A DNA stretch of 64,000 nucleotides, from positions 1,456,501-1,520,500 of the forward strand of contig BROG01000044.1 of NCBI GenBank assembly GCA_030159075.1. The letters are read 5' to 3'. This DNA comes from Atrina japonica (taxonomy: Eukaryota; Mollusca; Bivalvia; Pterioida; Pinnidae). Every line of letters starts with the position of its first letter. The stretch's first letter is position 1. A program made the position numbers and the translations under genes. The notes beneath the pieces are model-generated. The model did no database searches, was not told the origin of the DNA, and worked only from the letters and a program-made list of their open reading frames with translations. This document shows, piece by piece, positions 39,255 to 54,306 of the stretch.

Positions 39255-40048
39255 ATTAATGTATAATTAATTGTCTGATTCCCTTTCTTGTACAAAATGA
39301 TCGTACAGAACACATAAAACAATATAGAATAACTATCTTATATATAAATGTATTTATAAATTTAATAATTCCCAATGTGTATCACAGTTTGAGCTTCAAT
39401 GACATTAGGAAAATAAAAATAATATAAACATGTGATAATTCAATAAGACCTGCTTATTCAAGCAAGAAGTAATTGAAATCATTTAAACAGAAGAATTTTA
39501 AACATGATAAGAGATTAAAAAAAAATGCTCAAGGATTCTATAGGCAACAAGGAGAAAAGGACACATGCTGAAGATGAATTATATCCAATAATGATAAACA
39601 TTTATGTGAACCACAACACACTTTCTTATATTGATAAATACAAAAATGTCAAATTCATAAATTGTTCTGACTTTTGTATAACAAAAAAAAAAAACAATTT
39701 AATATTATAATTATGTACATTTCAGTTACCAAGGCATTTAGCTCTTCTAGAACTAATCGCATTTACGTTGATCAGTTAATACCCACTTGCAACCTTGGAA
39801 TTCAAAATCAAGAGAGTTTGAAAGAGATACAAAATTACATCACAAAGTGAGTCAAGATTTTTCTCTATTTTTATGTCTGTATTCTCAGCTTCGCATAGTG
39901 GGATGTGAAAAGTCTGTCACAGGACAGAATATAAATTGTAGAAGTAGAACTCTTTATATTATAGATGAAACCGATCTGTAGTTCTGTATGTTGATGTTTC
40001 TGAAAAACGTGAAAGAAAAAACTTGTGTTATTAATTCACAGTCAAATA

Positions 40049-41439: not shown

Positions 41440-41615
41440 CTCATAACGTTCTGATCAACAATAGATACAGTTGGCCGACTTTTTGGTCCTTGTGATGGCG
41501 TAAATATTTTTCCACTTTTATTAACAACATTGACAGATCGGTGAACTCGCATTTTATAAGGATCTGCAGAATGTGATGGATATGGATCGAATGTTCCAGC
41601 TTTCATACCAGCAGG
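41440..41615 (-). CDS. CFAP96: CFAP96 exon 6 (last recognised)
   Basis: PAGMKAGTFDPYPSHSADPY, then RSVNVVNKSGKIFTPSQGPK and SRPTVSIVDQNVM. The end is AG|GTAAGT, a consensus donor, yet reading through gives Arg and an immediate TAA. The human protein continues about 15 residues beyond this point, so a short terminal exon may be missing from this list. Confidence 0.9.
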
Positions 41616-44600
41616 CTGAAAATGTTACAAACAAAATTGTCTAAACAGATCTACAACAAAGCCTGTATGCAATTATTTTATGGATTTAAATTAACGATTT
41701 TGAAATAGAAAAATTAAAATAGGCAAACATGTGCATGACTTTACATAAATTACAGATACATATGATGAACTAATCGTACCTTCTTGCCTGGAGAACTAGG
41801 TTTAAATGGTTTCAAATCTTCTTTCTTTGAGCCTATTGTTGCAGAGCCACCCCGCCTTCCAAATTTATCAGAGGAATATGGATTGGCATCAAAGTAGGCT
41901 CTAGGATGCATATTTAATCTAAATGCACCTGTTCCTTTAATTGAACTTTTATGAGCTTGTAATTCTTTCTGGATAAAAGAATTTATATTTGATTAGAACA
42001 GTTCATTTGAAATTAGAATGTCTGATCATGGAACAATAAAAAATTGATGAAATAGACATATAAACAATTGATAATTGACATTATTTCTTTCATTAAAATT
42101 ATCAACCTGTAAGTATCATATAGCATTTGTTTCTCTATGACGTAATCAGTTGTCTTTGCCATATAAACATTCACATAGAGAACACACATGAATAGAGATT
42201 GAGTTATAATGCCTTTACATTGATATATCATATTGATTTATGTACACATTACTGTATTTGGTCATTCTTCTTTATAATGACAAAACTTAATTAACCTACA
42301 CATACATGATCAGACTTGGTAAACCTACATTGATATGACTAGATTTGCTGGTAATCCTACATTTATATGACTAGACTTGGTGATCCTATATTTATATGAT
42401 TGAACTTAGCAATCTGACTTTTATATGACAAGACTTGATAATCCTACATGTATATAACCAGACTTGATAATCCTACATTAATATGATATATGATTAGACT
42501 TGGTAACCCTACATTCATATGACCAGACTTGGTAATCCTTCATTTATATGACAAGACTTGGTAATCCTACATTTTTATGACTAGACTTGGTAATCCTACT
42601 TTTTTATGACTAGACTTGGTAACCGTACAGGTATATAACAAAACTTGGTAATCCTACATTTATATGGCTAGACTTGGTAATCCTTCATTTATATGACTAG
42701 ACTTGGTAACCCTACATGTATATATGCAGACTTGGTAATCCTACATTTTTATGACTAGACTTCCTAATCCTACATTTTTATGACTAGACTTGGTAACCCT
42801 ACATGTATATATGCAGACTTGGTAATCCTACATTTTTATGACAGAATTTTTATGCAGACTTGGTAATCCTACATCTTTATGATCCTACTACATTTTTATG
42901 ACTAGACTTGGTAACCCTACATGTATATATGCAGACTTGGTCCTAATTTTAAGACTAGACTTCCTAATCCTACATTTTTATGACCAGACATGGTAATACC
43001 TATACATCTGGTAATCCTACATTTTTAGACTTGGTAATCCTATATTTATAACCCTACATGGTATCCTATTTTTATGCAGACTTTGGTAATCCTACATTTT
43101 TATGACTAGACTTGGTAATCCTACATCTTTACATTTTTGGTAAGATCTTATGACATGGTAACCCTACATGTATATATACAGACTTGGTAATCCTATTTTA
43201 TGACTAGACTTGGTAATCCTATATTTAAGACTAGACTTGGTAATCCCTACATTTTTTGACTAGGCTTAATCCTACATTTTTATGACTAGACATGGTAATC
43301 CTACATCTTTACTAGATGTAATCCTACATATGATGACAGACTTATGCAGACTTTGGTAATCCTACATTTTTATGACTAGACTTGGTAACTATATTTATTG
43401 GACTTGGTAATCCTATAATTTATATGACTAGACTTGGTAATCCTACATTTTTTTTATGGATCCTACATCTTTATGGCTACGTAATCCTACATCTTTATGA
43501 CTAGACTTGGTAACCCTACATGAATATATGCAGACTTCTTAATCCTAAATTTTTATGACTAGACTTGGTAATCCTACATTTTTATACCTAGACATGGTAA
43601 CCCTACATGTATATATGCAGACTTGGTAATCCTATATTTATATGACTAGACTTGGTATCCTATATTTATATGACTACACTTTAACCCTACATGACTATAG
43701 CAGACTTGGTAATCCTACATTTTTATGACTAGACTTCCTAATCCTACATTTTTTAAGATCTTTACCCTACATGACTACAGACTTGGTATTCCTACATTTT
43801 AATAGACTTGGTAATCTTACATTTTGACTAGACATGGTAACCCTACATGTATATATGCAGACTTGGTAATCCTACATTTTTATGACTAGACTTGGTAATC
43901 CTATATTTATATGACTAGACTTGGTAATCCTACATTTTTATGACTAGACTTGGTAATCCTACATCTTTATGACTAGACTTGGTAATCCTACATCTTTATG
44001 ACTAGACTTGGTAACCCTACATCTTTATGACTAGACATGGTAACTAGACTATATGCAGGTAACCCTACATTTTTATGACTATGCTTGGTAATCCTTATTT
44101 AATCCTAACTTGGTTCCTTATGACTAGACTTGGTAATCCTACATCTACAGACTTGGTAATCCTACATCTTTATGACTAGACATGGTAACCCTACATGTAT
44201 ATATGCAGACTTGGTAATCCTACATTTTTATGACTAGACTTGGTAATCCTATATTTATATGACTAGACTTGGTAATCCTACATTTTTATGACTAGGCTTG
44301 GTATCCTACATTTTTATGACTAGACTTCTTACTTCTTTATGACTAGACTACATCTTTTTTATGACATGGTAACCCTATGACTTATGGACTTGGTAATCCC
44401 TATATTGATAGACTTGGTAATCCTATATTTAGACTAGACTTGGTAACCCTACATGTATATATGCAGGACTTGGTAATCCTACATTTTTTATGACTAGACT
44501 GGTAATCCTACACTTTATTAGACTTGGTAATCCTACATTTTTATGACTAGACTTGGTAACCCTACATGTATATATGCAGACTTGGTAATCCTACATTTTT

Positions 44601-47600
44601 ATGACCAGACTTGGTAATCCTACATTTTTATGACTAGACTTGGTAACCCTACATGTATATATACAGACTTGGATCCTTGGTATGACTAGACCTACATATT
44701 TATTTTATAACCCTACATGTATTACTAGACTTGGTAATCCTACATTTTTATGACTAGACTTGGTAATCCTACATTTTTAAGACTAGACTTGGTAACCCTA
44801 CATGTATATATACAGACTTGGTATTCCTACATTTTAAGACTAGACTTGGTAATCCTACATTTTTATACCTAGACATGGTAACCCTACATGTATATATGCA
44901 GACTTGGTAATCCTACATTTTTATGACTAGACTTGGTAATCCTATATTTATATGACTAGACTTGGTAATCCTACATTTTTATGACTAGGCTTGGTAATCC
45001 TACATTTTTATGACTAGACTTGGTAATCCTACATCTTTATGACTAGACTTGGTAATCCTACATCTTTATGACTAGACATGGTAACCCTACATGTATATAT
45101 GCATACTTGGTAATCCTACATTTTTATGACTAGACTTGGTAATCCTATATTTATATGACAAGACTTGGTAATCCTACATTTTTATGACTAGGCTTGGTAA
45201 TCCTACATTTTTATGACTAGACTTGGTAATCCTACATCTTTATGACTAGACTTGGTAATCCTACATCTTTATGACTAGACATGGTAACCCTACATGTATA
45301 TATGCAGACTTGGTAATCCTACATTTTTATGACTAGACTTGGTAATCCTATATTTATTGATATGACTACATTTTTATGACTAGACTTGGTAATCCTACAT
45401 TTTTATGACTAGGCTTGGTAATCCTACATTTTTATGACTAGACTTGGTAATCCTACATCTTTATGACTAGACTTGGTAACCCTACATGAATATATGCAGA
45501 CTTCTTAATCCTAAATTTTTATGACTAGACTTAGTAATCCTACATTTTTATACCTATACATGGTAACCCTACATGTATATATGCAGACTTGGTAATCCTA
45601 CATTTTTATGACTAGACTTGGTAATCCTATATTTATATGACTAGACTTGGTAACCCTACATGTATATATGCAGACTTCTTAATCCTACATTTTTATGACT
45701 AGACTTGGTAATCCTATATTTATATGACTAGACTTGGTAAGCTTACATTTTTATGACTAGACTTAGTAATCCTATATTTATATGACTACTTAGTTATCCT
45801 ACATTTATATGACTAGACTTGGTAATCCTATATTTATATGACTACTTAGTAATCCTACTTTTATATGACAAGACTCGGTTATCCTATATGAATATAACCA
45901 TGCAGACATTTTAATCCTAGATGTACATGACTAAACTTGGTAATCATACATGTACATGTATATGTTTATGTCTGGTAATAAATTCGTAAGTCTATCGTAA
46001 TGAGTATACAATAGGTGTAAAAAAAAAAGTATGACTTCACAAGATAACCCTACTGGTTTTTATCACAGTGAGTACTCCCAACATTTATATATAAGTATGT
46101 GATTTGTACAACAAAAGTAAGCACAGTGGCATGGCAGAGTGTACTTATTTCAACTTATTTTAACAATACATTGTAGTGACTGTGTGTATATCCAGGACAT
46201 CATATACAACAACACATTTATGTGCCGTTACAAATAAAGTTAGATATTGGAATCTCAGTTTGTTTGTGACATCATTATGCCATCAAGATCAATAAATGGG
46301 GGACTAGGTATTTTGGTCTATCCAATTTGTTCAAAACTAAGATTACCTCCTTCATTGACTTAGGGGGCCAAACAGAAACTTACTTTTTACTTGGTAAAAT
46401 TAAATACAATGAGGTGATTTATAAATTTCAACAGTAGTGGATTTACAAGTATATTTTGAAAAATGTCGGAAAAAAACCCCCAAAATAAAACAAAACAAAA
46501 CATGTAAATACAAGAATTCTTTGAAATTTTTACATGCCACTATAAGCCTAACATTAGTGAAATGCTCACTTCAATATGAATTGCTATTATGTTGAAATCT
46601 GCTTGGGAAAACTTAAGATTTCTTTACAGAAACACCAAAATTTGCTATTTAGACGCTTTCAAAGTCCTGTAACTCTAACAAATATAGGTCAATTTTTACC
46701 ATTACCATTAAAAAGAAAGTCAATTCACTACAAATTTATAAACAAGTTATACTAGAACAGATTATCTGTTGAAATGATAAAATATCATATCAATGATTTC
46801 CTCAAACCTTTGTAAGTTCCCGTGCTCTGTCAAAAGCATCTGTTTGGTATTTTGGATAATCCCCTAGTGTAATGCCCAAATAACTAGAAGAAAACACACA
46901 GAACTCACACAGATTAAATAATACATGCCCAAACAAAGCAAGTCGTGAATACATCGGCAAAATGCCGTGCTGAGTACATTTCAGAAAAACTGCATGGAAT
47001 ATCATTGGAAAGTGTCCATAGGTTTCTGAATTTCATGAACCATTAAAATTCAAAACCAAACATCATTTTTAAAGTGTTTAAATTAGGAAAATCTATAAAA
47101 AAAAAGTTTGACATTAAGAATAGCCTTTAGGTCTCAAGGCCAGTAGCACTTGCAAAGCAACACAAAACAAAATTAAATTTTGAATTTTGAATCTTTTTTT
47201 CCAATATTAAATGTAGTTTCCATGATACACCTTGCAGTCTTGTAAGATCACACAGTGTTTATGCTCAAGTTAGATACCAAATGACATAGAATATATATGC
47301 CAAAGTGACATCTGTGAAACAAAAGTACTGTATCAATTATACATATGGTTTGATACATGTATAATCACATATGAAATTGATTTCTCTGACCTAGGACATT
47401 GTGACATAAGTCATATGTAAGTAAATGTATGATAAAACTACTTTTTATATTGTAACCCTGTGTCGTTGATTTTGGTATAATATGTTCATTTGTACCAAAG
47501 TTAAGGTTTTGATATAGATGTATATATATGAAGAGAAAAAGAGTGTATACACTGTAATATATCAGGAGCGTCAAACATTTCAGTATACAGCTGTAATATA

Positions 47601-50600
47601 TATATATCAGCAGCGTCAAAAATGTCAATATATACACAGACTGTAATATATCAGCTGAGCAGCGTCAAACATTTCAGTATACATTGCAATAATATCAGCA
47701 TTGTCAAACATTTCAGTATACACAGACTGTAATATATCAGCTGAACAACGTCAAACATTTCAGTATACACAGACTGTTATATATCAGCTGAGCAACATCA
47801 AACATTTAAGTATACACTGTAATATATCAGCAGCGTCAAACATTTCAGTATACAGCAATATATCACAGCAAACATGTCATATACAATGAAATAGCTGAGC
47901 AGCGTCAAACATTTCAGTATACATTGCAGCATCAATATCAGCATACACTGTCAAACATTCAAACATTTCAGTATACATTGTAATATATCAGACTGTAATA
48001 TATCAGTATACACTGAATTAATCAGCAGTCAAACATTTCAGTATACACTGCAATATATCAGCAATGCAAACATTTCAGTATACAATGAAATAGATATCAG
48101 CAGCATCAAACATTTCAGTATACACTGTAATATATCAGCAGTGTCAAACATTTCAGTATACACTGTAATATATCAGCAGTGTCAAACATTTCAGTATACA
48201 CTGCAATATATCAGCAATGCAAACATTTCAGTATACAATGAAATAAATATCAGCAGCGTCAAACATTTCAGTATACATTGTAATATATCAGCAGTGTCAA
48301 ACATTTCAGTATACACTGCAATAAATCAGCAGCGTCAAACATTTCAGTATACACTGTAATATATCAGCAGTGTCAAACATTTCAGTATATACACAGACTG
48401 TAATATATCAGCTGAGCAACGTCAAACATTTCAGTATACATTGTAATATATCAGCAGTGTCAAACATTTCAGTATATACACAGACTGTAATATATCAGCT
48501 GAGCAACGTCAAACATTTCAGTATACACTGTAATATATCAGCAGCGTCAAACATTTCAGTATACACTGTAATATATCAGCAGCGTCAAACATTTCAGTAT
48601 ACATTGTAATATATCAGCAGTGTCAAACATTTCAGTATATACACAGACTGTAATATATCAGCTGAGCAACGTCAAACATTTCAGTATACACTGTAATATA
48701 TCAGCAGCGTCAAACATTTCAGTATACACTGCAATATATCAGCAGCATCAAACATTTCAGTATACATTGTAATATATCAGCAGTGTCAAACATTTCAGTA
48801 TATACACAGACTGTAATATAAAAGCTGAGCAACGTCAAACATTTCAGTATACACTTGTAATATATCAGCAGCGTCAAACATTTCAGTATACACTGTAATA
48901 TATATCAGCAGCGTCAAACATTTCAGTATACACTGTAATATATCAGCAGTGTCAAACATTTCAGTATATACACAGACTGTAATATATCAGCTGAGTAACG
49001 TCAAACATTTCAGTATACAATGAAATAAATATCAGCAGCATCAAACATTTCAGTATACATTGTAATATATCAGCAGCGTCAAACATTTCAGTATATACAC
49101 AGACTGTAATATATCAGCTGAGCAACGTCAAACATTTCAGTATACACTGTAATATATCAGCAGCGTCAAACATTTCAGCTTCAGATGACAGATGAATGAA
49201 GTAATGAAGTTTTTGTAGTTAGTAATAAAGCAAAACAAATATAATTTTGAATATGCCACTCCACGCTGTTGCATTGATTTTATAAACTGAGACAAACCCG
49301 GGCAATCTCTTTGTGTTGATCAAAAGGATCAGTCTGATAATTAGGATATTTTCCTAGTGTAACTGCAAGATATCTGAAAATGGCACAGGAAATATCAATG
49401 ATTCAATCTCATACTAATAGCCACAATTTCCCACTTTATCAAGTGATTTACATGTAACATGCCTCTGTGAAAAAAAAAATGGCACCAGATATAATCCACA
49501 ACATATAAACTGCAGTGATCAGTTTTTCCTCTTATTATTTTTTTTAGTTCTCAGGCAATAGATAAATATTTGTTAACATTGGTTTAAATCTTGTTTAATG
49601 ATTTAAGTTCCAAAAATGTAATGAACCATTACTTACCAATTAAATTAAATTTATTAATAAAAAGAATTACAAATCTGAAAATTTTACCCAAATCCTGTTC
49701 CTTTCTTTGCAGGGTTGGTCATGAAATTTTTACCAGGCGATTTATACTCTTTGCCAGGTTTACCTGTTGGACTAAAGGCTCCTATGGGTCCACTAAGTGT
49801 ACCATAATGATTCCCTAAACCAGATCTGCAAGGGAAATAAACAAGATCACATTGATATGCAGTATAATCTTATTTCAACTGAATCTAAACAATAAAAAAA
49901 AACATATAAATATGTCGGAAAAGGATCTTTTCTGTATTAGTTAGGTAATCATTTATTGCATGTAACCAGAGATTCTCCTACCTATATTTTAACCTGTCTT
50001 GAGAGACCATCCCATCTGCCACTGAAATATGGTCTCAGGTGGTCTCTCAAAAGAGGTTTTATTTAAAGGATTTATCAGCCAAGTGGTTTTCTGAATGTAG
50101 TCTCAAAGGACAGCTGGTGGTCCTTCATGAGAGTGGTCTTTTACAACTGGTTCCACTGTATTATGAAGAGGGCTCAGGGTCCATGAAATCGGAAATTACC
50201 ACACATAAATAGACATAAACTTAAAAGTGCAAAATTAAAAAAGAAAGAAATTATATACAGTAAAACTTGTATATAAGACCCCCTTAGGGACATAACAAAA
50301 CCAGTCTTTATAGGGAAGTGGTCTTTATATAGAGGTTTATTTATACAAAATGATACTATTGGGAGCAGCAAAAAACAGTTTTTATGACCAGGTGGTCTTT
50401 CTACACAGGTGGTCACTAAAACAGATTTTACTGTATACATGTACATGAAGTTCACAATAATTTTATTGATAACCTTTAACAAATTTATTACGACAGGTAA
50501 CTTCATTAATTTTTGTCCATGAAAGTAACTAAAATTATTTCCGACATATATAATCTGTCAAGATGCGATCTGAGAGAACAAGAATTGCGAATTGAGGGTC

Positions 50601-53600
50601 AGAAAACTAGGAAAATATGGTCAATTTAACAGGACACAATATGACTCTCTGAAAATCTCGCATAACATCAATGATTTCCTTTATTCAAGTTTTCTGATAT
50701 ACAATGCATGTCTCTGATGAAGTTATTTCATACATACACAGAAAATTAAGAATTGATAACAGTAATTAAATACGTACGGTTTTTTATCACCACTGCTTGG
50801 TAGAAATGGTTTACCAAGATTTTTTTGCATTTCCTTAAGTCTATGTTGCCGCCTTAGTTTAATAGGGTCTGTATATGCCTCTCCTTCCATCACTCTGGCA
50901 AATTTGCCTTGAAAATAACCAGCTTGTAAGGCTGACCTAGTTTTTGATCCTTCTGGAATCATTTGTTTATTTTTAGATGCCGCTTCATTGAACTGAACTG
51001 AAATGGACAAATGTGTTCTATTATTGCACTTTGCTTTTTTATATGTAAAATAGAAAAATAGATAAGCGAATATATGACTTCCAAAAACTGGAAGGGAAGG
51101 GGGAAATAATGGTTATATACCGGTAAACAATCAGTTAATCACCAATAACTAAAAAGACATGAGCAAATGTAACATATAAAATTATCTTCTATTTGCCTTA
51201 CAAATCATTGGACATTTGTTTTTCAAATTATCATTATCACTGTACATGGATTTTCCACCCTTATAATCATACAGTGCCTAAATAAGGCCACATTCAGAAT
51301 GCAAAAACAATGCATTTTTTCGCAATTTTCAGTCGAAATTTCCCAGTTGAAATCAAATGGAAATGAATATAAGAGATTCTTGTATTTTCACATTGTTTTG
51401 TGTATTTCTAGATTTCCCAATGCTAAAATTTTCAATTTGAAAGGCCTAGGCCCTATTCCTATTCCCAACAGAGCGTATTGTTTTTTAAATCCTTGCTGTA
51501 TTGTTTTTTATGATGTTTGTTGTTTTACATCCTGTCAAGAAAAGGGTTCTTTTATGTGCCATGTTTTCCACGACACGGGACCTCGTTTTTCAGTCTCATC
51601 CGAAAGACACATGCCTTTACTTCGTATGCCAAGCGCTTGGCGAAGGAACAGTCACTACCATTTTTAGAGTCTTTGGTATGACCCGGTCCAGGAATCGAAC
51701 CCAAGACCTTTTGCTTGTGAGTCCAATGCTTTACCACTAGACCATCGCAAGTGGGTTTTTTTTATGATGAAATGTCTAGCTGTGCTCTTAACTCATTCAC
51801 CCCTTAAGACACATTTGGAATGGCCTAAATAATTGATTCATAGAAGAGTTCATTGTTTCTCAGGGGTTGATGAGTTAACTTATAACATTACTATTATTTA
51901 TCAAATGCAGAGACAACAAACATTAATTTCTGTACTCCTGCAACACTATTGTGAGAAGATGTTTTTAAATCATAATTGACTATATGACTAAATTGAAAAT
52001 TGGCCAAAACCATTTAACCAAAAAATTGTTGAGTGTGGAGTGAAAAACACCATTAAATAAAATCTAAATAAAAACAATCAAGGATAGCTAGGAGTACTAA
52101 AAATGCAAACAATCTCGTTATCTAATTGGTATGTTATTATGTATATATCATTTTGTATTGTATTTTAATCGGCACTTTAGCAAATTGCCTATGACAAGGT
52201 CAGTGATAGAAATTTGATATTGTAAATTATGTTGAAATGTACGGTAAATGCTTAAATGAAAGATACATGTATGTAATTCAAAGAATTCTAATTATGATAA
52301 AATTTAAGTAACTTTATATTGTAATCAATTGAATAATACTTTAAATAAACTTAATTATTACCTTTATATTTTATTACTGATGTTAGTAGGCTTAGTATTC
52401 AAGTATTATGTGTCCTGTGATATCATTAATTTCAAAGTTTAGAATTTTTTTTTTTGGCATATAACTGCAATCATGCATAACACCTGACAGAGATATAAGA
52501 ATGAATTTGGCAAAGGAAACCAGCCTTTCACATCTTGGAATAATGTTCACAGGCAAATATCAATGTTGATACACAAATTGATTCAGTTGATAAATATGGG
52601 TATGTCACTATAGAAAAGTAACAGACATTCTATGATTTCCCCTGTTGGGAGTACAGGCAAATGGCACAGCAAAGTTGCCACATGATTGGGCAAAATTATC
52701 ACAGGACAGGGTGGGACAACCTGCTTTAACCGTCTAACTAGAACACTAATGTGTATTTTCAGAATAAAAATAATCTGACACTGTTGGGAATACTTGCAAA
52801 TGGCAGGGCAAAGTTGCCACACGATTGTGAAAAATTAGCACAGGACAGGGCGGAACACCCTGCTGTAAACCTCTAACTAGAACACTAATGTGTATTTTCA
52901 GAATGAAAATAATATGAATAAATATTCATATTTTATATACACGTAGTTGCATTTAAGAGACCTTAAACTTGATATCATGTGACATTAGGATACAGCCATT
53001 TAGAGTTGTAATTGGTTAAGATTGTAATACAAAAAAATCATTTCAGTATTTCAGTTATTGCTTTAAGATCTGCTTCTTTGCAAAATGTTATTGATAACAT
53101 ATTATCAAAATTACAGGAAATTAGTTTTCACCTTAGGTGTGACAATAACTTTCATTGTTTGGATGTACATATAATCATGTGTGATTTACTTATTTGAGAA
53201 TGACAGTATGTAATAGTTTCTGTTTCACAGAAAGATGCCTTTTGAAACACAATATGGCTACAAGTACTGTGACTTTCAAACAGTTGATGCCATGCACAAA
53301 GATTTTTTAAATACAAGTCAAGTGTACTGCTAAGCAATGATCAGCGATACAATAGGAACTAACTATACTGACATACACAAACTGCTGTCATAGAAGGTTC
53401 TAAATTTGTCAGTTTGCCTTCTGTTCATGTTTCATTTAATCTTGTGGGATTACATATATGTAAGTTAACATAGGCTATACAAGTGTAAAATTAAACATTT
53501 CATTCTTGTGACCTAATACCGTTGAGAATGTACTTCAAGTTCAAGCAGGTGAGTAATTATATCTTTTATGCAAACATTCTCCAAAAACATAAATTCAGTT

Positions 53601-54306
53601 ATTCTCCATTTGGTATATTTATTTGATAACACAATGAGTGGATCAAATCACTCACTATGAAATTGATACTCTATCATCCGTCTAGCATGTACAGCAAGCG
53701 ATAAAGTTACATGTTTTGATTGGCTTAGCTATATTGTGTGCATATCTGCCATATCATCAAATGAAAATAACCGTAACCAGTTATGGCAGTTTGTAACGGT
53801 GTATACTGCCGAATATCACTGTACATGATTTGTTCCCTGAATGGAAAGAAGTTAAGAAATTCTTTCAACATAAACTTGGAAAGATAATTATAATGTGGAA
53901 AGATGCTGCAAGTACAACTAATAAGCCTATGGTTTTTTTTTACAAAACTGATAAATTTTGAGAGAAATTGCCAGATAAAAGCTTAATGGATGTTCAAGAC
54001 AGTTTTGCCTGTCGAAATTGGGGCACTCATGGTGACATGTACACTAGCCTTACTGAAGTGAAGAATGAAGAGTGATCTACACAGTACATGACTACAAATT
54101 AGGACCACATTCAGTTATTGCATGCAATTAGGATAAATTGAGGGTAAAGGCCTCTGTGTTGATGGTTTATTTTACTTTTAGTCTTTCGACTAATCAGCAT
54201 ACTTACTTCCAGGTTGTTTGTATTTATCATTGATGGTAATATATCCCATCTCCTGGAAAAGACCCACACGGTCCATGTCTTGTTTGCCTCCTTTATTTTC
54301 TGACAT
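41440..54306 (-). CDS. CFAP96: CFAP96 / C4orf47-like cilia- and flagella-associated protein
   Basis: The human relative is a ciliary axoneme/basal-body microtubule-associated protein (family knowledge). Minus-strand exons in order: 54306-54207, 50997-50778, 49825-49688, then either 49373-49298 (4A) or 46883-46808 (4B), 41968-41780, 41615-41440. The sum with one exon 4 is 899 nt, giving about 300 residues against about 309 in human. Family motifs are seen in order: GLFQEMGYITINDKY, FNEAASKNKQM, NLGKPFLPSSGDKKPSGLG, GKNFMTNPAKKGTGFG, LNMHPRAYFDANPY, FKPSSPGKK, PAGMKAGTFDPYPSHSADPY and GPKSRP. The start is the ATG at 54306, matching the family start. The C-terminus is uncertain: the last exon ends ATG-AG|GTAAGT, so either it is spliced to an unseen short exon, or it is read through to TAA one codon later. 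Introns are large and filled with minisatellites. Confidence 0.92.
41780..41968 (-). CDS. CFAP96: CFAP96 exon 5
   Basis: 63 codons in phase 0, including KGTGAFRLNMHPRAYFDANP, YSSDKFGRRGGS and FKPSSPGKK. LNMHPRAYFDANPY matches the human LNLHPRDYFDANPY. The acceptor is TTATCCAG and the donor GTACGA. Confidence 0.95.
42300..45930. repeat. 3.6-kb minisatellite, unit about 29 bp, more than 100 units
   Basis: The unit is TATGACTAGACTTGGTAATC + CTACATTTT. Variants include TTGGTAACCCTACATGTATA + TATGCAGAC, which recurs every 4-8 units and gives a higher-order pattern. Several stretches (for example 42940-43090, 43260-43330, 44030-44160, 44310-44420, 44670-44720) contain truncated, jumbled units. It lies in the CFAP96 intron between exon 4B and exon 5. 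Confidence 0.95.
46711..46797. repeat. Intronic sequence shared with 40463-40550
   Basis: TTCACTACAAATTTATAAAC, AAGTTATACTAGAACAGATT and TGTTGAAATGATAAAATATC. It adjoins the donor side of exon 4B. Confidence 0.65.
46808..46883 (-). CDS. CFAP96: CFAP96 exon 4B (mutually exclusive candidate)
   Basis: 76 nt: T completing Gly, then YLGITLGDYPKYQTDAFDRA RELTK (25 codons). It is 15 of 26 residues identical to exon 4A with identical length and phases. The acceptor is TTCTTCTAG; the donor GTTTGA is weak, like that of 4A. Joining 4A to 4B shifts frame and meets a TGA inside 4B; skipping both also shifts frame. Confidence 0.88.
47545..49180. repeat. 1.6-kb minisatellite, unit about 38 bp, roughly 40 units
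   Basis: The unit is GTCAAACATTTCAGTATACA + CTGTAATATATCAGCAGC, with a longer variant ATACACAGACTGTAATATAT + CAGCTGAGCAAC interspersed every 2-4 units. Irregular truncated units occur at 47860-48010. It lies between CFAP96 exons 4A and 4B. Confidence 0.95.
49298..49373 (-). CDS. CFAP96: CFAP96 exon 4A (mutually exclusive candidate)
   Basis: 76 nt: A completing Gly, then YLAVTLGKYPNYQTDPFDQH KEIAR (25 codons). It corresponds to the human segment after KKGTGYG. The acceptor is TTTTCAG; the donor GTTTGT is weak. It starts in phase 2 and ends in phase 0, as does 4B. Confidence 0.88.
49688..49825 (-). CDS. CFAP96: CFAP96 exon 3
   Basis: Reads PSGLGNHYGTLSGPIGAFSP, then GKPGKEYKSPGKNFMTNPAK and KGTGFG. 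It ends with GG of a Gly codon (phase 2), which fits either exon 4A (adds A) or exon 4B (adds T), both giving Gly. The donor is GTAAAA. Confidence 0.95.
49986..50160 (-). mobile_element. pogo-like MITE (family A), inverted
   Basis: AACCTGTCTTGAGAGACCAT ... ACTGGTTCCACTGTA. The interior TCTGCCACTGAAATATGGTC is the reverse complement of the 10697 copy. It lies in CFAP96 intron 2. Confidence 0.75.
50255..50435. mobile_element. pogo-like MITE (family A2)
   Basis: 181 bp, TACAGTAAAACTTGTATATA ... AAACAGATTTTACTGTA, with good inverted ends and TA edges. Interior GTGGTCTTTATATAGAGGTT resembles 20417 and 63738. Confidence 0.75.
50778..50997 (-). CDS. CFAP96: CFAP96 exon 2
   Basis: Reads IQFNEAASKNKQMIPEGSKT, then ALQAGYF, ARVMEGEAYTDP and KNLGKPFLPSSGDKK. 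The acceptor is TTTCAG; the donor is GTACGT. The exon ends two bases into a Pro codon. Confidence 0.95.
51490..51755 (-). mobile_element. tRNA-derived SINE, minus orientation
   Basis: The minus-strand head is GATGGTCTAGTGGTAAAGCA (box A) ... GGGTTCGATTCCTGG (box B), near 51745 to 51690. The body contains GGTAGTGACTGTTCCTTCGC, TGTCTTTCGGATGAGACTG and a CACGGGACCTCG core. It is the best-preserved SINE head in the window. It lies in CFAP96 intron 1. Confidence 0.85.
51788..51878. mobile_element. 90-bp TTAA-ended MITE, best copy
   Basis: 91 bp from TTAACTCATTCACCCCTTAA to CAGGGGTTGATGAGTTAA. The inverted ends are about 17 bp with TTAA at both edges. Interior AGACACATTTGGAATGGCCT. It lies directly beside the SINE head. 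Confidence 0.8.
52642..52917. repeat. Tandem duplication, unit about 149 bp
   Basis: Two copies starting CTGTTGGGAGTACAGGCAAA and CTGTTGGGAATACTTGCAAA. Both run through GCAAAGTTGCCACA, CACAGGACAGGG and CTAGAACACTAATGTGTATT. They lie in CFAP96 intron 1. Confidence 0.85.
54207..54306 (-). CDS. CFAP96: CFAP96 exon 1 (start codon)
   Basis: ATG (complement of 54304-54306) then SENKGGKQDMDRVGLFQEMG, YITINDKYKQPG. The DMxRxGLFxEMxYIT block is the family N-terminus. Donor GTAAGT begins at complement of 54206; the exon ends one base into the next codon. Confidence 0.93.

Follow-up and report, generated by a model that had tools for sequence, protein, structure and literature searches.

What does a gene for a ciliary protein gain from two neighbouring exons that encode two versions of one short segment, and can an mRNA use both? 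The question is raised by 64 kb of contig BROG01000044.1 from the bivalve Atrina japonica (the window, whose own numbering is used below). Its minus strand carries CFAP96 (C4orf47/UPF0602), which encodes a component of the doublet microtubules of cilia. From the sequence alone, an original prediction had read exons 4A and 4B of this gene as a mutually exclusive pair enforced by the reading frame. Our analysis supports that reading, and the relatives of the gene strengthen it: very probably, 4A and 4B are an ancient, functional, mutually exclusive exon pair.

Both exons were found on the minus strand where they had been placed (Table 1), each 76 nucleotides (nt) long. As predicted, each enters after two codon bases and ends on a codon boundary. 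The acceptors of both are AG, and the donors share the expected GTTTG (CGG/GTTTGT in 4A and AAG/GTTTGA in 4B, the slash marking the exon end). The remaining five CFAP96 donors are GTAAGT, GTACGT, GTAAAA, GTACGA and GTAAGT; apart from 4A and 4B, every exon that has a donor shows A at position +3. The identity of 15 residues in 26 was reproduced as 14 of 25 whole codons plus a shared glycine codon that is split at the exon 3 junction. The BLOSUM score between the two peptides, 86, was reached by none of 200,000 shuffles (maximum 36). At third codon positions 11 of 25 agree, and the estimate of synonymous divergence (dS) is undefined owing to saturation, which argues that the two copies are old. 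A profile built from relatives, with the window copies excluded, recovered the 4A and 4B segments with scores of 70.2 and 67.3 bits. It turned up no third copy in any of the six frames of the window, the next best score being -14.8.

With 4A alone or 4B alone the frame stays open and yields a complete CFAP96 of 314 amino acids (aa) ending at the stop codon. Joining 4A to 4B does produce the anticipated TGA, inside 4B and 387 nt before the last junction, and leaving out both exons shifts the frame, again as anticipated, so that translation stops 310 nt ahead of that junction. In sum, 4A and 4B are homologous neighbours that agree in length and phase and have kept their splice signals. The frame arithmetic enforces the use of one and only one of them at the level of the useful mRNA; the choice made by the spliceosome is a separate matter. 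We propose that the pair arose by an ancient tandem exon duplication and that splicing picks one copy. An mRNA with both or neither would be shifted in frame, meet an early stop and, as expected, be removed by nonsense-mediated decay.

Table 1. Coding exons of CFAP96 and intronic minisatellites in the window
Feature	Position	Strand	Remarks
CFAP96 exon 1, coding part from ATG	54207..54306	-	ends in phase 1
CFAP96 exon 2	50778..50997	-	
CFAP96 exon 3	49688..49825	-	ends in phase 2; donor GTAAAA
Alternative exon 4A	49298..49373	-	76 nt: YLAVTLGKYPNYQTDPFDQHKEIAR; donor GTTTGT; A class: 27 of the 48 molluscan rows labelled, counting the window's own
38-nt minisatellite	47545..49178	-	most of the 4A-4B intron
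Alternative exon 4B	46808..46883	-	76 nt: YLGITLGDYPKYQTDAFDRARELTK; donor GTTTGA; B class: 21 of the 48 molluscan rows labelled, counting the window's own
29-nt minisatellite	42312..45958	-	most of the 4B-exon 5 intron
CFAP96 exon 5	41780..41968	-	entered in phase 0; common 3' partner for 4A and 4B
CFAP96 exon 6	41440..41615	-	
CFAP96 exon 7, coding part up to stop	39954..39999	-	RNINIQNYRSVSSII followed by the stop

The identity of the gene is well supported. Its coding sequence spans more than 14 kb of the window with six introns, and the joined protein matches Pfam PF15239 (CFAP96-like) at 353.4 bits in the A form and 357.6 bits in the B form (cut-off 27) over residues 9-298 of 314. Chains named CFAP96 in the Protein Data Bank (PDB) match it along its full length (best E 2.4e-114), and the entries with chains named CFAP96 or C4orf47 that were found by sequence are 8snb, 9cpc and 8otz. 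Each of the three full-length CFAP96 chains (8otz/9cpb, 9cpc and 8snb) aligns via one single such segment. By its title 9cpb is bovine, and 9cpc is porcine; they are doublet microtubules from Fallopian tube cilia and brain-ventricle cilia, respectively. We take 8snb to be sea urchin. Through these relatives, the molluscan CFAP96 would be placed in doublet microtubules too. For human C4orf47, one paper reports occurrence in motile-ciliated cells (PMC12772120), and another describes a centrosome-associated protein present in ciliary axons and tips (PMC9891878). The position of CFAP96 within the doublet was not found in the literature searched, and CFAP96 does not occur in PMC11779644 or PMC13406575. 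In that literature C4orf47 and "doublet microtubule" came together in one cattle-yak testis study, and "CFAP96" itself came up in an Alzheimer's disease paper.

We then compared the segment among relatives, using the best 120 of 455, 458 and 570 hits from three protein searches for CFAP96. Forty-eight molluscan rows of the alignment, the window's two included, were labelled A or B by eye. These counts exclude P0012, P0048 and P0097 (unclear), P0018 (a second Mya entry) and P0028 and P0110 (both segments); P0122-P0127 also stand outside them, and of these P0122 and P0123 look B. Molluscan CFAP96 splits into the two classes in the alternative segment only. In pairs of an A-only and a B-only protein whose backbones (the protein outside the segment) are 90-98% identical, the segments agree at only 32-56%. 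Identity was 97% outside and 32% inside the segment between Haliotis rufescens isoform X1 (P0022, B) and H. cracherodii isoform X2 (P0026, A); 98% and 56% between Mytilus edulis P0037 (A) and P0016 (B); 93% and 52% between Crassostrea virginica isoform X3 (P0002, A) and P0003 (B); 91% and 40% between the same P0002 and Ostrea P0004 (B); and 90% and 40% between Nucella P0041 (A) and P0043 (B). At the protein level, relatives thus use each segment singly with the same neighbours. A merely local duplication does not account for the pair, because bivalves and gastropods alike have otherwise near-identical proteins that contain just one version or the other. A leave-one-lineage-out profile test, which relies on the by-eye labels, assigned 27/27 A and 21/21 B rows correctly.

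Some relatives also inform on gene structure and expression. In M. edulis, the predicted protein P0028, from one 359-kb contig, holds A before B, so that the tandem order there is the order in the window. Many full-length entries of either class sit on short contigs; full open reading frames (ORFs) of 311-316 aa were found on contigs of at most 1,099-2,715 bases, for example, for both the A class (P0006, P0010, P0013) and the B class (P0003, P0007, P0016). Given the length of the gene and its six introns, contigs this short are most simply spliced RNA, and we strongly infer that molluscs produce mRNAs of both forms. By hand count among the matches listed, NCBI-named CFAP96 or C4orf47 records are called "isoform Xn" in 17 of 19 molluscan cases vs 1 of 24 others (Fisher 7e-9); two further vertebrate records with isoform names appear in another set of matches. 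There are points on the other side: the isoform names are silent on what differs between the isoforms, and P0012 (Potamilus), P0048 (the chiton Liolophura) and P0097 (Pomacea) fit neither class clearly, their profile scores leaning towards B (-6 to -10).

How old is the pair? The alignment of orthologues that had been suggested for dating was run, and places the duplication most simply before the split of bivalves and gastropods. The backbone tree was built without the segment, 11 of the 123 rows being excluded (seven frogs, a fish, a bird and two coral-like rows). On this tree carriers of A and B interleave through bivalves and gastropods, and the 48 labelled rows require 15 changes of label, vs 2 on the segment tree, which is independent of the by-eye labels and based on 25 columns. 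As backbone similarity grows, mean A-B segment identity rises from 0.34 to only 0.47, and A-A and B-B identities reach 0.80-0.85. All 17 gastropod A rows are on average closer to their bivalve A counterparts than to gastropod B, and all 12 gastropod B rows are on average closer to bivalve B than to gastropod A. Because the gastropod rows sort by class, not by lineage, a parting of A and B before the bivalve-gastropod split is the simplest account, and the sequences argue strongly that the exon pair is older than that split. Several observations pull against so early a date. Bivalve A is closer to gastropod A than to bivalve B in only 6/10 rows, and bivalve B is closer to gastropod B than to bivalve A in 0/9. 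At backbone identities of 0.55-0.65, B-B pairs (0.35) are about as similar in the segment as A-B pairs (0.34), with A-A pairs at 0.51. Support for the B branch of the segment tree is low (63/78), and the B rows P0054 and P0058 are placed among A rows. Gastropod B seems to have changed fast.

The two classes differ at few positions. A Tyr-Pro at segment positions 9-10 is present in 48/48 rows, and when residues are grouped by class and an 80/20 threshold is applied, A and B are told apart at columns 8, 19 and 20 only. Position 8 is lysine in 26/27 A and 0/21 B rows, position 19 is lysine or arginine in 0/27 A and 18/21 B rows, and position 20 is alanine or glycine in 11% of A and 90% of B; the rows are phylogenetically related, so these counts are not independent. 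AlphaFold models of P0002 (A) and P0003 (B) predict the same helix at residues 168-186, their best-predicted part (block pLDDT, the confidence score of the model, 83 and 84). The alternative segment, residues 153-177, is modelled as an extended stretch preceding this helix plus the first half of the helix itself. The models are otherwise poor, with a mean pLDDT of 56 (A) and 55 (B), as expected if CFAP96 folds on microtubules, and their Foldseek matches to 9cpb and 9cpc reach TM-scores of only 0.10-0.13; on both counts they add little beyond the sequence match. Since it is small, residue-defined and predicted to lie at the start of one helix, the A/B difference is directly testable.

What, then, are the two versions for? 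Our leading reading, which we hold tentatively and at somewhat less than even odds, is that A and B are used in different cilium types. The two versions would fit CFAP96 to two kinds of cilia, for instance sperm flagella vs gill or epithelial cilia, by altering how the extended stretch and the first half of the helix are seated in the doublet. The lysine of A in the extended stretch and the basic residue of B in the helix would be the features that differ. For Atrina japonica itself, we only infer from sequence that the choice between 4A and 4B is regulated. Mammals speak against this proposal: one bovine sequence is found in 8otz, 9cpb and 9fqr. As it serves both in the Fallopian tube cilia of 9cpb and in 8otz, which is presumably sperm, mammals do not need two versions.

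The same observations can be read differently if both exons are expressed but the choice is unregulated, the segments being interchangeable or forming a fixed mixture in every cilium. The Tyr-Pro core shared by all 48 rows, the similar net charge of the two segments and the identical predicted helix would suit such a case. However, drift between equivalent copies would be unlikely to maintain three columns that separate A from B by class, and PMC9741552 gives three quarters of human tandem-duplicated-exon isoforms as tissue-specific. We therefore consider an unregulated choice rather unlikely, though it is the most serious competitor of a use by cilium type.

A second alternative treats 4A and 4B as cassette exons with occasional joint inclusion, and it bears directly on the claim that only one exon can be used per mRNA. 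This claim stood as far as the frame arithmetic in the window is concerned, where 4A followed by 4B stops inside 4B, but it is not universal. Biomphalaria glabrata isoform X1 (P0110) carries A, five residues (CTKVS) and then B in frame, and this protein counts against strict exclusivity. Since its two segments share one frame, P0110 needs an A exon of 90 nt (76 + 14), a multiple of three; if real, it illustrates how the shift of one donor can abolish exclusivity. Among 121 aligned database proteins, however, both segments occur in only P0110 and the predicted P0028, and P0028 joins them by a 64-residue insert that resembles a prediction artefact. Occasional joint inclusion thus appears very improbable as a general account.

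Slightly less credible still is a pseudo-exon: one of the two copies would be decaying or would never have been used, and only the other would matter. Both donors are indeed weak, but open frames and splice signals are kept in both exons despite saturated synonymous divergence, both classes are found in full-length proteins on the short RNA-like contigs of relatives, and A-A and B-B identities between close relatives are as high as constrained sequence should show. Least probable of all is that A and B are two paralogous CFAP96 genes and the window a fusion or partial copy: A and B proteins are separate database entries, but in the window a single gene contains both exons and in Mytilus a single contig does. 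The backbones, moreover, are 93-98% identical (Haliotis, Mytilus, Crassostrea) and interleaved on the tree, a pattern that separate old genes would not be expected to give short of constant conversion.

With 4A and 4B taken as a mutually exclusive pair, the means of exclusion can be narrowed down. The intron between 4A and 4B measures 2,414 nt and that between 4B and exon 5 measures 4,839 nt; the AG-free stretch before the acceptor is 18 nt for 4B and 32 nt for 4A. Steric crowding of donor and branch point, which had been put forward as something to look for, is not borne out by these values and is ruled out as the cause by the 2,414-nt intron. A distant branch point, the other form of tropomyosin/OGDH-like exclusion, is unlikely, with an AG-free stretch of only 18 nt before 4B. 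A scan of positions 46600-49850 for complementary intronic elements that would pair one exon at a time, as in Dscam-like docking-site/selector exons, yielded none that convince; it returned five inverted repeats, of which three are palindromes, the best long-range pair by length being 19 nt at 79%. With crowding and a distant branch point set aside, and no convincing complementary elements in 46600-49850, frame incompatibility and decay are left as the means. A stop codon well upstream of the last junction triggers nonsense-mediated decay as a general rule. Exclusivity probably results from frame incompatibility and decay, with a regulated choice between the two weak donors added.

The introns on both sides of 4B are mostly satellite, and the 29-nt and 38-nt minisatellites that fill them are unrelated. 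Through the 38-nt unit, the 4A-4B intron contains GTTTGA, the donor hexamer of 4B, 36 times and TTACAG 21 times. Many of the 38-nt units resemble tiny decoy exons, which may be a coincidence.

Did the pair arise before molluscs? We examined 37 outgroup rows outside the lophotrochozoan clade (deuterostomes, corals and rows grouping there; the set contains no mammal). Both basic residues, at positions 8 and 19, are present in 24/37 of them, only the second in 7, only the first in 5 and neither in 1; the 8snb chain has both. In columns 8, 19 and 20 the state kept is the majority outgroup state in all three, and these columns had been picked for separating A from B, a match to the outgroup state not being a selection criterion. 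Each exon would then retain one element of a combination that is frequent, though not universal, in single-segment proteins. This suggests a scenario that we consider possible but rather doubtful, in which the pair arose in an early lophotrochozoan, before molluscs, and split an ancestral double function, A keeping position 8 and B position 19. Were this so, animals with both exons could assemble doublet microtubules of two chemical kinds with a single gene, and annelids, nemerteans and brachiopods would have kept mainly B. The pair may cleanly illustrate how two exons share out residues formerly carried together by one. Two findings weigh against an ancestral split: lysine at position 8 is absent in 23 of the 27 other lophotrochozoan rows (only the second basic residue in 21, both in 4, neither in 2), and among mammals the bovine chain combines K8 with A19, the porcine one having neither basic residue.

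Five proteins (P0077, P0086 and P0093 vs P0068 and P0075) form a clade outside Mollusca on the backbone tree and contain a similar contrast. Three A-like/B-like pairs among them have backbone identities of 0.70-0.80 and segment identities of 0.20-0.32, below all 102 other non-molluscan pairs in the same bands (minima 0.44 and 0.52). Clade pairs at backbone identities of 0.65-0.70 have segment identities of 0.28-0.44, within the range of 206 others (minimum 0.24). The diagnostic residues sort as in molluscs, except for a histidine at position 8 in one A-like row. In this clade, the comparison suggests a pair that is either older than molluscs or has arisen twice. We also observed that P0078 (Watersipora) and its sister P0079 have a segment ending in EPYDQVALNDK, unlike A or B and with neither diagnostic basic residue.

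The rest of the window holds other features. On the plus strand, a large ORF at 62530-63636 matches metallophosphoesterase and Mre11 DNA-binding domains; an MRE11 gene probably begins there, within one long exon. Also on the plus strand, an ORF at 24646-25017 matches the USP7 C-terminal domain, which suggests that the left part of the window holds a USP7-like gene. On the minus strand, GTCCAAATGTGTCT occurs three times between about 36547 and 41301, in the last CFAP96 intron and downstream of the gene, each time inside a longer look-alike stretch; the three copies are probably a dispersed repeat.

Differences between the cilia of one animal are usually credited to separate genes. CFAP96, by contrast, is a single gene from which a doublet-microtubule protein can be made with either of two 25-residue versions of one stretch, and these versions have apparently been separate since before bivalves and gastropods split. 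A description of the CFAP96 exon pair was not found in the literature searched (titles and abstract openings, with few subscription papers), nor was a mutually exclusive exon pair in this kind of protein (titles and abstract openings). Genome annotation, which lies outside that literature, already lists isoforms of CFAP96.

Mutually exclusive exons are already known as a kind, and frame enforcement is a common form of them. In the human catalogue of Hatje et al. 2017 (PMC5740500), frame incompatibility applies to 377 or 60% of the mutually exclusive exon clusters. The frame-enforced human exons are like the CFAP96 pair in being homologous neighbours whose joint inclusion shifts the frame; the CFAP96 pair differs from that catalogue in sitting in a molluscan doublet-microtubule protein. 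Steric exclusion, as described there, involves a distance of less than 50 nt from donor to branch point, in contrast to the 2,414-nt intron of CFAP96. OGDH exons 4a and 4b are likewise ancient duplicated exons that each tune one small region of the protein (PMC7969005). They differ in being enforced by distant branch points, and in birds and mammals their intron is 118-131 nt long, whereas CFAP96 has 2.4 kb and only 18 nt free of AG before 4B. The exon pair of the T-type calcium channel Ca-alpha1T/cca-1, according to PMC9741552, has persisted for hundreds of millions of years in several phyla, molluscs among them, and resembles the CFAP96 pair in this persistence. It belongs, unlike CFAP96, to an ion channel and is protostome-wide, and the words "cilia", "axonem", "microtubule" and "tubulin" do not occur in the main text of that paper. 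A functional parallel may lie in the swaps between sperm and epithelial cilia of CIMIP2A/CIMIP2B and RSPH6A/RSPH4A, in which one axonemal position is filled by two related versions (PMC11779644). That study lists few such paralogue swaps and calls their reason still unclear. Those swaps use separate genes, whereas CFAP96 would make a comparable exchange, its use by cilium type being hypothetical, with alternative exons of one gene.

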